Source of the DNA: Dromiciops gliroides | Lineage: Eukaryota > Chordata > Mammalia > Microbiotheria > Microbiotheriidae | Direction of reading: 5' to 3' | NCBI RefSeq assembly: GCF_019393635.1 | Contig: NC_057864.1 | Location: forward strand, 467,486,117 to 467,550,116 | Length of the DNA: 64,000 nucleotides | Shown: piece after piece, positions 27,740-36,679 of the stretch | How positions within the stretch are numbered: the first letter of the stretch is position 1 | Layout: each line of letters begins with the position of its first letter | Translations under genes and position numbers: made by a program | The notes under the pieces: generated by a model | Databases searched by the model: none | What the model was told of the DNA's origin: nothing | Seen by the model: the letters and a program-made list of their open reading frames with translations, nothing else

Positions 27740-27754
27740 CTAGTAAGGCTTTCT
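27740..27754 (-). CDS. Tapasin-like exon 8: tail end and stop
   Basis: The acceptor is gtctatcctgttacag. Read in phase 0 it gives RKPY then TAG (27742-27740). With the preceding Lys the protein ends KRKPY. If the microexon were skipped, this exon would be read in another frame into MIR-derived sequence, which is less plausible. The 3' UTR continues to lower coordinates; its end is not resolved. Confidence 0.55.
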   Translation of the reverse strand, partial: RKPY

Positions 27755-33700: not shown

Positions 33701-36679
33701 ACTCAGGAGATTCCCCCCCCAAAAAAAAGTATGAATGGAAGTAGATACCACTCACAGTCAATCACCAAGCACTTATGGGGTAGGAGACACTGAGAGACCT
33801 GAACCTGACATTTCATCAGTGTAGGGAACCCCCTGGATGAGAAAAATGCCAATCTGCTCCCATCTCTACAACTCAGTAGACAGAACACTGAGAGGTGTGA
33901 CTTGCCCAGGGTCACCCAGCCAGGATGTATCAGATGCAGAACTTGAACTAAGGACTTCCCAGTTTCCTACTTAGTATCACTGATGCCTCTCTCCCTCCCA
34001 GTGTGAGTATACAAAGACCAAAACAGTAAACAGTCCCTAACCTTAAGAGATTTCTATTCTCATGCACTCACCTGTCACTTATACATAGCAACATGTCTAA
34101 GTTCACTCTCTCACACATTCACACCTACAAAGGCTGCACACACACACACATACTCTGCTCTCCCTTTGTCTGTCTGTCTCCTCTCTCTCTCTCTCTCTCT
34201 CTCTCTCTCTCTCTCTCTCTCTCTCTCTCTCTCTCTCTCTCTCTCACTCTCTCTCTCTCTCTCTCTCTCTCTCTCTCTCTCTCTCTCTCTCTCTCTCTCT
34301 CCTCTCTCTCTCTCTTTGTCTGTCTCCTCTCTCTTTGTCTGTCTCCTCTCTCTGTATCCTTTCTCTTTCTGTCTCTCTCTCTTTGTCTGTCTGTCTTCTC
34401 TCTCTCTCTTCCCCTCTCCTCCCCTTTCCCTCTCCTTCCCTCCCCCCTTTTCTCCAATTCTCCCCCCTGCTGTGACACAGGGAACCTCCATTGGAAGCCT
34501 CTCTCCTTGCCTCTCCCCATGGCAGACAAGAGCAGCTTACCCTGCAATAGGAAGGTGTCACTGTTGCTCCCATGGGGCAGGGTCTGGCTCTCAGAGCCAC
34601 TCAGCACCAGCTGAATATGCTGCCAGTGAAGGTGTGACTCTCCATCCTGGGTCTTAGAGGGATCTGGGGGCACCTCCAACATGCAGGGTAGCTGGCCAAC
34701 CTTGCCCAGCTTCATGCCAGCCTCCACCACGTGCCAGCCTGGGGTCCATAGCAACCCTGGGATAATAAGAGAGGAAAGGAGTGACCCTTCTGCCCCCGAA
34801 ATGGGCTGGTTGGGGGTGTACACATCCTTAGGTCTTTCCATCAGTGATGAATGACCTCTTCCAACACCGAGATTCTGTGATTCTCTTATACTGCAGGCCC
34901 CAGGAGAGCCCAGTTCACTGATGCCAATGAGCTCAGGGTCCTGGGGTCACCCCAGCCCTACCTCAATCAATAAATCAATCAGTGAGCATCTACTATAGGC
35001 CAGACCGGGGCATATAGGGGGTGCCATAGTGCATAGAGTGCATAGAAAGGGCTTGGATCAGGAAGGTTCACCTCCCTGAGTTCAAATCTGGCCTCAGACA
35101 CTTCCTAGCTGTACGACCCTGGGCAAGTCACTTCACCCTGTTGGCTTCAGTTTCCTCACCTGTCAAATGGGCTAGAGAAGGAAATGACAAACCACTCCAG
35201 TATCTCTGCCAAGAAAATCCCAAACAACAACATACTGTGTTCAGACAATGTGCCAGACTGTGCTAGAGATACAAAGACAGAAGAGAAGAGACCCTACCTG
35301 GGGGAAGAGAGACACATACAGCTTTCATAGGGGTGGCAAACTCCCTTAGGAGGAAAGTCCCTACAACTGTGCAGATCAATGCCCTCCAGCCTTAAGAATT
35401 GCTTGGGGTGGGGCAGCTAGATGGTGCAGTGGATAGAGCACCCGCCCTGGAGTCAGGAGTACCTGAGTTCAAATCTGGCCTCAGACACTTAATACTTACT
35501 AGCTGTGTGACCCTAGGCAAGTCACTTAACCCCAATTGCCTCACTAAAAAAAAAAAAAAAGAATTGCTTGGGGTGGGGCAGCTAGGTGGTACAGTGGATA
35601 AAGCACTGGCCCTGGATTCAGGAGTACCTGAGTTCAAATCCAGCCTCAGACACTTGACACTGGCTGTGTGACCCTGGGCAAGTCACTTGACCCTCATTGC
35701 CCCACAAAAAAAGGGGGGGGGGGGCGGGGAAGAGTTGCTTAGAGCATTGAGAGTTTAAGTGACTAAGCTAGGATCATTCAGCCAGTATTCCTCAAAGAGG
35801 GGGCTCAACCCTAGGCCTTCCTGATCCTGAGGCCTGCTCTGTATCTACAATCCCAGAATGAGAATATGCAGAACATACATAAAATAAGCTGTTGTATGGC
35901 ACATACGATTTAATAAAAACATAATATTGGGGAGGCATTCACACCTAGAGGGAGTCAGGAACATTCTCATGTAGGTAATGGCATTGAAGGGAGCTAGGAG
36001 TGAGGAGAGAGGGCATCACAAGCAGGGTCACAGCCAATGCAAAGGCCTGGGGATGGGAGATGGGATGCTTTGGGTGAGGGACAGCAAGAGAGCAGTTTGG
36101 CTGGGTTGAAGGGTGTGTAAATGGCTCTTAGCTTCCCCTTCTCCCTTTTCTTCCTTCTGCTGCCTTTCAAGAGAAGGAAGTGCAAAGAAACCAAAGTCCT
36201 GAGGTCCTTTGGAGCCTATATGTGGTGGGGTCCCCTCCTGACTGGAGGACCCCCAGGGTCTGCAGAAGCTTTGGGGGGGCAGCCCAGCAAAAGTCAGTGA
36301 ATCTGAGCCCCCAGCCCCAGCTCTCCCCTCAGGGGCCCGGCAATCCTCAGGTTAGGGCCGGGGCCACCTCCCCAGCTGTGGGGCTAGGACAGGGAACACC
36401 CAAGGACATTCTCCTCTCTGAGCAAGCACCCTGGGCAGTTCTCTCTCCCCTTTCCAAGGGAGCACCCCAGGCATTCCCCTCTCTGAGCCCCTGGGCACTG
36501 TGGGGTCCAAGGGGAGGGGGCAGGGTTGCTAGCAGCTCTGGTAGCCCCACCCCTCCTGGGCTGCCCCAGCTCGTCCCCAGAGCAAGGTGAACCTGCCGTG
36601 TTGAGGGGAGGGAGGCGGAAAAGGGTCTGCACTCACCAGCGCTGAGCAGGTACAGGGCCAGCATTTCTCTTCCCACCAT
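27740..36679 (-). CDS. Tapasin-family ER membrane glycoprotein (third tapasin-like gene)
   Basis: Eight exons on the - strand (36679-36637, 34756-34541, 33442-33203, 32953-32609, 31577-31245, 29348-29259, 28024-28008, 27754-27740) join in phase into 1299 nt, 432 residues. Residues 1-27 are a signal peptide. The N-domain has Cys39 and Cys105, the latter in C-x-x-S-R-Y-F as in tapasin and TAPBPL. Residues about 167-281 are a V-type Ig domain (Cys190, Trp205, DQGTYFC263, sequon N245). Residues 282-392 are a C1-type Ig domain (Cys307, Trp321, YTC372). Residues 399-417 are a membrane helix. The tail ends KRKPY, a KXKXX ER-retrieval pattern as in tapasin. Tapasins edit peptides on MHC class I in the ER. 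The helix lacks the lysine that tapasin uses to bind TAP. Length is close to human tapasin (448) and TAPBPL (468). The family call is firm; the exact orthology is not. Confidence 0.85.
27827..27974 (+). mobile_element. A-tailed SINE with 13-bp TSD beside a microexon
   Basis: AAGAAGGTCATAG at 27814-27826 and 27975-27987. It ends about 20 bp from the donor of the 17-nt exon of the tapasin-like gene. Confidence 0.92.
28008..28024 (-). CDS. Tapasin-like exon 7: 17-nt microexon
   Basis: Just 17 nt, between a strong pyrimidine-tract acceptor (ttttttcttccag) and a consensus AAG/gtaaga donor. It encodes VESRNK and shifts the phase from 1 to 0, which is what lets the next exon end in KRKPY. Confidence 0.6.
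28070..29022 (+). mobile_element. L2 LINE, end of reverse transcriptase frame plus 3' end
   Basis: One frame gives APQGSVLDPLLFSFYT, the non-LTR reverse transcriptase PQGSVLGPLLF motif. It continues in L2 order to CATAGAGCGGGCAACTGATA and TGTTTGTTGATTGACTGATT. Old and broken. Confidence 0.8.
29259..29348 (-). CDS. Tapasin-like exon 6: transmembrane segment
   Basis: The acceptor is ctctctacag and the donor gtaaag. It encodes ERFEIK, then WWFLLLIIAILVVLLVLLL, then RTLHQ. The helix has no charged residue and is flanked by basic residues on the cytosolic side. Confidence 0.88.
29466..29620 (+). mobile_element. A-tailed SINE, first of a tandem pair
   Basis: Flanked by AGAAGGGCTGAATGGGGG-type direct repeats (about 29448 and 29622). 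Confidence 0.88.
29639..29790 (+). mobile_element. A-tailed SINE, second of a tandem pair
   Basis: Starts inside the right TSD of its neighbour; followed by AGGGCTGACTG. Confidence 0.88.
29953..30175 (+). mobile_element. Older CORE-SINE
   Basis: GGCAGCTAGATGGTTCAGTG head and MIR-type tail. Confidence 0.7.
30270..30590. mobile_element. Old MIR-like fragments
   Basis: CCTCAGTTTCCCGATCTGTA on + and GAGAAAACTGAGGCTCAGGG on -. Confidence 0.5.
30939..31086 (+). mobile_element. A-tailed SINE with perfect 14-bp TSD
   Basis: CAAAGTGAGACTGA at 30925-30938 and 31087-31100. Confidence 0.93.
31245..31577 (-). CDS. Tapasin-like exon 5: C1-type Ig domain
   Basis: The acceptor is ctttccccag and the donor gtactt. 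It encodes residues 282-392, starting EPPKVTLSP as tapasin's C1 domain starts with PPKV. It includes KLVCEVNRYFPLEAHVQW and GVRYTCRVEHESL, the canonical C1-set cysteine and tryptophan positions. Confidence 0.9.
31935..32105 (+). mobile_element. L2 3' end
   Basis: TTTGTATCCCCAGCAGTTAG, TGGCACATAATAGGTGCTTA, ATTGATTGGTTGATT. Confidence 0.6.
32106..32430. other. Intron of the tapasin-like gene, unique
   Basis: Nothing recognised until a MIR-like piece near 32430-32500. Confidence 0.35.
32609..32953 (-). CDS. Tapasin-like exon 4: V-type Ig domain
   Basis: The acceptor is ctctcccgcag and the donor gtaact. It encodes residues 167-281 with the B-strand Cys190, core Trp205, a sequon at Asn245 and DQGTYFC (Cys263). 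Confidence 0.88.
33203..33442 (-). CDS. Tapasin-like exon 3: N-domain, second part
   Basis: The acceptor is atttgcag. It encodes residues 87-166 with KLECKVSRYF (Cys105), the family signature, and a third cysteine, Cys150, with no obvious partner. The donor is gtcagc, weaker than the others. Confidence 0.82.
33505..33645 (+). mobile_element. Old CORE-SINE
   Basis: GTTCAAATTCTGCTTCTGAC, GAGCAAGTCACCTAACCCC. Confidence 0.55.
34139..34455. repeat. (CT)n tract with CTCT/GTCT variants
   Basis: About 120 nearly pure CT units, then CTCTTTGTCTGT and TCCC variants, in intron 2 of the tapasin-like gene. Confidence 0.95.
34541..34756 (-). CDS. Tapasin-like exon 2: N-domain, first part
   Basis: The acceptor is ttattatcccag. 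It encodes residues 15-86, from the end of the signal peptide (GLLWTPGWHVVEAG) through GQLPCML, whose Cys39 matches the first N-domain cysteine of tapasins. The donor is gtaagc, phase 1. Confidence 0.85.
35015..35235 (+). mobile_element. CORE-SINE, long type
   Basis: CTGTACGACCCTGGGCAAGT, ACCACTCCAGTATCTCTGCC. Confidence 0.7.
35412..35560 (+). mobile_element. A-tailed SINE, first of a tandem pair
   Basis: GAATTGCTTGGGGTGG at 35396-35411 and 35561-35576. Confidence 0.93.
35577..35735 (+). mobile_element. A-tailed SINE, second of a tandem pair
   Basis: Begins directly after the first copy's right TSD; a diverged GAGTTGCTTAGAG follows its G-rich tail. Confidence 0.88.
35736..36636. other. Intron 1 of the tapasin-like gene, unique
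   Basis: GC-rich toward exon 1. No gene on the + strand supported. Confidence 0.45.
36637..36679 (-). CDS. Tapasin-like exon 1: start codon and signal peptide
   Basis: ATG at 36679-36677 has G at -3 and +4. It encodes MVGREMLALYLLSA and ends in phase 1 at a gtgagt donor. A second in-frame ATG (Met6) would also leave a usable signal peptide. Confidence 0.8.

Follow-up and report, generated by a model that had tools for sequence, protein, structure and literature searches.

Gene model and predicted protein

The window analyzed here is a 64-kb stretch of the genome of the monito del monte, Dromiciops gliroides (C4:467,486,117-467,550,116, in an assembly of 3.30 Gb and 17 contigs), and it carries an intact, real third gene of the tapasin family, the other two being tapasin (TAPBP), which aids antigen loading of MHC class I, and the tapasin-related protein TAPBPR. 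The gene occupies 27740-36679 of the window on the minus strand, with 8 GT-AG exons whose continuous phase gives 432 codons and a stop. An earlier reading of the letters alone, hereafter the original prediction, had already joined eight exons in phase into 432 residues, with a start and an end that agree with ours to the base; only the strand was absent from it. The gene model is not a product of chance, because the translation agrees at every one of its 432 aa (100% identity) with a public Dromiciops gliroides protein, P0001, which NCBI calls "tapasin-related protein-like isoform X2".

Exon 1 (36637-36679, minus strand like the rest) has the start codon and a signal peptide recognized by eye, and is fixed by splice joining and identity to P0001. 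The N-domain is encoded in 2 parts, the first with C39 in exon 2 (34541-34756) and the second in exon 3 (33203-33442), where splice joining and alignment place C105-KVSRYF, a loop reading TANTQILWPG, and C150; the tapasin-type motif C-x-x-S-R-Y-F that had been predicted is present as C105-K-V-S-R-Y-F. Exon 4 (32609-32953) encodes the immunoglobulin (Ig) V domain with an N245-A-S glycan site, and exon 5 (31245-31577) the Ig C1 domain with an H343-R-Q patch. Both Ig assignments of the original prediction are borne out by Pfam, which matches V-set at residues 175-268 (4.6e-16) and C1-set at 297-379 (2.9e-10). A connecting peptide and the membrane helix come from exon 6 (29259-29348), the helix spanning 397-426 in the AlphaFold model. 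By splice joining, exon 7 (28008-28024) supplies the cytoplasmic tail VESRNK and exon 8 (27740-27754) adds RKPY and the stop, so that the 2 together form a KxKxx-type tail, KRKPY, which the alignment also supports.

The AlphaFold model has a mean predicted local distance difference test (pLDDT) score of 78.4, with residues 1-32 below 50. Its best Protein Data Bank (PDB) matches are tapasin and TAPBPR chains, aligned over 33-392, and by sequence the best PDB match is TAPBPR. The Pfam matches and the predicted model together put the N-domain, IgV, IgC1, and membrane helix in one chain, which is the domain set of both tapasin and TAPBPR. The match to B7-H6 (NCR3LG1) differs in that it spans residues 167-389 only, with the N-domain excluded.

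A third clade, separate from tapasin and TAPBPR

Searched with the IgC exon, the Dromiciops genome gives four places: besides the window these are the loci of TAPBPR on C1 (43%) and TAPBP on C4 (38%), and a place on C6 (28%). The last is an Ig C1 exon at C6:106788974-106789267, for which the best solved-structure match is B7-H6 (8.2e-17). Dromiciops TAPBPR and TAPBP proteins assembled from their own loci match the public rows P0038 (92%) and P0158 (100%). TAPBP, TAPBPR, and the third gene each have their own place in this genome, and therefore the three paralogs are three loci.

In a homologue search of 5.8 billion proteins, the window protein matches 37. Those with names are from marsupials (P0001-P0005, P0007-P0009), platypus (P0010), turtles, galliform birds, frogs, and a caecilian, while three unnamed rows, P0006, P0011, and P0028, are by identity nearest to Antechinus, a turtle, and a frog. 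For the other 2 paralogs we kept the best 120 of 175 TAPBPR rows and the best 120 of 129 TAPBP rows; isoforms and partial rows are included in all row counts. A tree was made from 42 rows hand-picked from these 277 proteins (20 third-paralog, 11 TAPBPR, and 11 TAPBP); for TAPBP and TAPBPR it draws on mammals alone, and it has no fish rows. In this tree a third clade with support 100/99 unites the window protein with 19 others, from marsupials, platypus, turtles, birds, and amphibians, all 20/20 chosen third-paralog rows lying on one side of the branch. The original prediction had called the gene a separate and ancient member of the family, and the search and tree that it proposed as a check return this third clade, in agreement with it, and not a placement inside TAPBP or TAPBPR.

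That the gene might be merely TAPBPR or TAPBP relocated is suggested by its database name, "tapasin-related protein-like", and by TAPBPR being its top PDB sequence match. Both genes are, however, elsewhere in the Dromiciops genome, the approximately unbiased (AU) test rejects the window protein inside the TAPBPR clade (p 1.2e-7) and inside the TAPBP clade (p 8.4e-5), and identity to the animal's own TAPBPR and TAPBP is just 28% and 21%. We regard relocation as ruled out by the 2 other loci and the AU tests, and give it scarcely any credence; the gene is neither TAPBP nor the human-type TAPBPL, as had been predicted.

The name TAPBPL needs care. It is the official human gene name of TAPBPR and was used in that sense in the original prediction, and in the literature it also stands for the third gene. 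Grimholt 2018 (PMC5824609), citing the opossum sequence XP_007485846.1, applies "TAPBPL" to a third gene present in marsupials and lost in placentals, and reports a lack of conservation at the TAP lysine, an endoplasmic reticulum (ER) signal in some members, and an unknown function. The gene family was therefore already described, which rules out a new gene and removes the novelty that the original prediction implied. The window gene and Grimholt's agree in family by tree, with turtle, chicken, frog, and marsupial rows, and in taxon range, and nothing separates them. By these sequence measures, Dromiciops has in the window gene its ortholog of the third tapasin-family gene, the one called TAPBPL by Grimholt and "tapasin-related protein-like" by NCBI. 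What is added here is the platypus row, a private loop motif, a mammal-only cysteine, an upstream element of interferon-response type, and the EXO5/Rap1GAP neighborhood; the literature passages retrieved on the third gene mention neither its chromosomal neighborhood nor a platypus third gene. A review, in the passages at hand, states that many non-mammalian jawed vertebrates have three tapasin family members and counts what the third one does among the open questions of immediate interest (Kaufman 2022, PMC9586880). From fish to marsupials there is a third tapasin-type protein, which the lineage underlying textbook antigen presentation does not have.

As to that absence, no row named as placental is among the 37 homologues, a statement about protein rows since no placental genome was searched, and this fits the predicted retention in marsupials with loss or movement in eutherians. 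The case for this absence is stronger because the same database is rich in placental TAPBPR and TAPBP, the named matches listed for the Dromiciops TAPBPR and TAPBP searches being placental, marsupial, and monotreme proteins, and because the third-paralog search reached as far as frogs at 33% identity. Squamates, most birds, and the opossum third gene are likewise not among the 37 matches, which does not imply absence when each search scored about 8000 candidates.

Residues kept, gained, and lost

The alignment has 276 rows (36 third-paralog, 120 TAPBPR, and 120 TAPBP), P0009 having been omitted as an isoform without IgV. The N-domain cysteine columns C39 and C105, presumably C7-C71 of tapasin, are C in 32/36 and 33/36 third-paralog rows, the other 4 at C39 being gaps. 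The IgV cysteines of TAPBPR are kept in 35/36 and 36/36 rows, a disulfide shared with TAPBPR and lacking in tapasin, which has neither cysteine there. With tapasin are shared the glycan site at the N233 column (N in 33 of the 36 and in 113/120 TAPBP rows) and a tail of the ER retrieval type, which is KxKxx ending in KPY in 23/36 rows and KRKPY in the window protein, with KKxx or KxKxx in 86/120 TAPBP rows. On the IgC domain, the TAPBPR patch R335-Q336-S337, which meets alpha-3 (PMC6307860), is matched by R344-Q345-S346 in the window protein. The arginine column is R in 26/36 and K in 7/36 rows, with R in 9/9 mammal rows, and the second position is Q in 14/36.

Directly after C-x-x-S-R-Y-F, the third paralog has a loop of its own, T-x-N-T-Q-I-L-W-P-G. 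The strict pattern is found in 31/36 rows and WPG in 33/36, and neither the strict pattern nor [ILVM]WPG occurs in any of the 240 TAPBP and TAPBPR rows. This is where tapasin has its Glu72-Lys84 loop, which engages the class I alpha2-1 helix and which TAPBPR is without (PMC9482634). The AlphaFold model is uncertain here, with pLDDT 56 for residues 111-120 and 59 for 121-130. Further along, C150 is in all 8 marsupial alignment rows and platypus, and in 0 of the other 27 third-paralog rows. As the other six cysteines fall in columns of known disulfides, C150 in the mammalian third paralogs probably lacks a disulfide partner.

Other features of the 2 better-known paralogs are missing. The column of tapasin C95, which forms the ERp57 bond, is a gap in 36/36 third-paralog rows, an absence shared with TAPBPR, and the column of TAPBPR C94, the UGT1 cysteine, is C in 0/36. 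The pattern [ED]WR.Q of IgV is found in 105/120 TAPBPR and 120/120 TAPBP rows, where we take the E-W-R-x-Q patch of tapasin to be E185/R187/Q189, and in 0/36 third-paralog rows. As for a lysine for TAP inside the membrane helix, residues 399-415 of the window protein appear by eye to include no basic residue, and the aligned column is K in 10/36 third-paralog rows, an unreliable count as the column mixes helix and tail.

Upstream element and transcription

An element of the interferon-stimulated response element (ISRE) or interferon regulatory factor (IRF) type, GAAACTGAAAGT, lies at 36741-36752 on the minus strand, which is 62-73 bases upstream of the ATG on the gene's strand. The motif was spotted by eye before the pattern search, which finds 5 matches in the 64-kb window against 1.03 expected, a number reached in 1/100 shuffles. 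By our own arithmetic from 5 matches on two strands of 64 kb, the chance of one match within 100 bases upstream on the coding strand is about 0.4%. The Dromiciops tapasin gene is similar in having an ISRE-type GAAAGTGAAACT starting at -69. The upstream region of Dromiciops TAPBPR has no exact match to the ISRE pattern, and GAAAGTGAAAGAGAA, seen there by eye about 190-200 bases upstream, was not counted as an ISRE. A search of the window for gamma-activated sequence (GAS)-type sites gives 6 matches where 9.85 are expected and provides no evidence. In salmon, three tapasin-family genes are up by log2 of about 1.7, 1.5, and 3.0 at 24 h after interferon-gamma (PMC7573153). The unnamed row P0006, 83% identical to the Antechinus row, has 431 residues encoded on a contig of 2418 bases; this contig probably derives from spliced RNA, since the Dromiciops coding exons span 8.9 kb.

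What the third tapasin may do

The point of interest that remains is the function, and with it the sharp division between class I contacts that are kept and class I contacts that are lost. We think it likely that the third paralog is an interferon-linked, ER-retained chaperone of major histocompatibility complex (MHC) class I-type molecules. It would be a type I ER membrane glycoprotein held in the ER by the KRKPY tail, and its gene would be induced through interferon and IRF. The IgC domain would dock on the alpha-3/beta-2-microglobulin side of class I-type heavy chains, and the TxNTQILWPG loop would be used where tapasin applies its Glu72-Lys84 loop to the alpha2-1 helix. The original prediction had the protein acting in class I peptide loading. 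Judged by residues, the features for that are mixed, with the ER tail, glycan site, and IgC arginine present and the IgV E/R patch and ERp57 cysteine absent. Since there is no tapasin ERp57 cysteine and, by eye, no lysine in the membrane helix, the third paralog would probably act outside the peptide-loading complex, as TAPBPR does.

Several observations weigh against such a chaperone, most of them at residues by which TAPBPR or tapasin contacts class I. Mutation of the TN6 set of TAPBPR (E205, R207, Q209, and Q272) abolishes HLA-A*02:01 binding (PMC9956121). The E205 and R207 columns are conserved in 0/36 third-paralog rows, the Q209 column is Q in 14/36 and the Q272 column in 3/36, and at the four positions the window protein reads A, V, R, and E. 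I261, which TAPBPR needs (PMC4718805, PMC8154891), is I in 10/36 rows and F in the window protein. The glutamate following the second N-domain cysteine, which is Glu72 in tapasin and Glu102 in TAPBPR (PMC9482634), is matched by E or D in 9/36 rows, which are amphibian except for an unnamed one that resembles frogs; 8/9 mammal rows have K, R, or T there, and the ninth, P0008, appears out of frame after that cysteine. Alanine at TAPBPR E102 leaves HLA-A*02:01 rescue unimpaired (PMC8154891), and therefore loss of this glutamate alone may mean little. The losses at TN6, I261, and the acidic residue make it doubtful that classical class I is bound in the known pose; the third paralog probably has another way of docking, or other class I-like molecules as its partners. 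In the literature passages retrieved we found no binding, location, or induction data for the third paralog in any mammal.

The main rival is that the third paralog has departed from the class I pathway and that, as an Ig protein of the ER or the surface, it serves another partner and shares with tapasin its ancestry only. We hold this to be unlikely. IgC is the best-kept domain in seven comparisons (56-62% to platypus, turtle, chicken, and caecilian) and retains the arginine that TAPBPR uses on alpha-3; the glycan site, ER-type tail, and ISRE-like element agree with tapasin, and the predicted fold matches tapasin over its whole length. A gene decaying without a role in marsupials would be in keeping with a faster divergence than that of tapasin among marsupials, Dromiciops to Vombatus being 73% against 86% for TAPBP and 78% for TAPBPR, and with some partial or oddly spliced database rows (P0005 at the tail, P0007 at the start, P0008 with a stretch of the N-domain out of frame, and P0009 without IgV). 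In the comparison with platypus, however, it is more conserved than the other 2 (54% against 48% for TAPBPR and 51% for TAPBP), its disulfide cysteines, glycan site, and tail are conserved, IgC stands at 79-83% against 44-56% for the membrane helix and tail in three marsupial comparisons, and P0006 is a probable spliced contig. Decay is on this evidence very improbable.

A bolder version of the chaperone reading, which we put forward as a long shot, concerns the client. In it the marsupial and monotreme third tapasin would be a dedicated ER chaperone of a non-classical class I that placentals lost, for example UT, docking through IgC and the TxNTQILWPG loop instead of the TN6 face. C150, a lumenal cysteine gained in mammals, could form a mixed disulfide like those of tapasin C95 and TAPBPR C94, while marsupial tapasin lost C95, and placentals would have lost the chaperone along with its client. 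The UT class I family is in marsupials and monotremes and was lost in placentals (PMC4509613, PMC5101759), and this distribution within mammals is the one support for the link. The third tapasin cannot have arisen for UT, since UT is not found outside mammals and the third tapasin is. The residue map leads to concrete questions, which are what the class I-type partner is, whether the TxNTQILWPG loop takes the place of the alpha2-1 contact, whether C150 enters a mixed disulfide, and what has become of the tapasin-ERp57 bond in marsupials.

Neighboring genes

EXO5 lies upstream of the third-paralog gene on the same strand (39542-46562, minus), as open frames with coding exons at 46254-46562, 41678-42031, and 39542-39832, the bounds being approximate. 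Joining 236 residues from these frames gives a match to human exonuclease V at 2.8e-99. A search of the Dromiciops genome for Exo5 gives one match, in the EXO5 of the window and through one exon, and therefore a weak copy elsewhere could be missed. An open frame at about 4264-4617 on the plus strand is read as a C-terminal exon of RAP1GAP2, and to the left of the window, 18.8-22.7 kb from its start, are Rap_GAP exons whose PDB match is human Rap1GAP. The neighbors named in the original prediction thus stand as EXO5 and a Rap1GAP-type gene; that the latter is RAP1GAP2 and not RAP1GAP is our assumption from the C-terminal sequence. Human RAP1GAP2 is on chromosome 17 and human EXO5 on chromosome 1.

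Dromiciops EXO5 is split over at least 3 open frames kilobases apart. If the coding region of human EXO5 is a single exon, placentals may have kept an EXO5 retrocopy and lost the parent along with the third tapasin; we found no literature on EXO5 as a retrogene. The chicken third-paralog row, P0019, is filed as "XIAP-associated factor 1 isoform X14" and looks like a fused gene model. The linkage to XAF1 that it suggests was looked for and rejected, the three XAF1_C matches in Dromiciops being at C1:173.3 Mb, C4:285.4 Mb, and C3:0.99 Mb, none of them close to the window.

Observations on tapasin and TAPBPR

The Dromiciops tapasin locus is at C4:242364500-242374400. The C95 position of tapasin is serine in 9/9 marsupial rows that cover it (P0158-P0165 and P0173) and a gap in two more, and the monotreme rows P0272 and P0276 have cysteine. 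Over the 120 TAPBP rows, this column has C in 95, a gap in 14, S in 10 (nine marsupial and one porpoise isoform), and R in 1. At the position of the tapasin membrane lysine, Dromiciops (P0158) has arginine, and the six other marsupial rows checked keep the lysine. For TAPBPR, which differs from the third paralog in its tail, KKxx is found in 20/120 rows; where these rows are named they belong to bats, horses, and a rhinoceros, in which TAPBPR may therefore be ER-retained, and the human row has no such tail.

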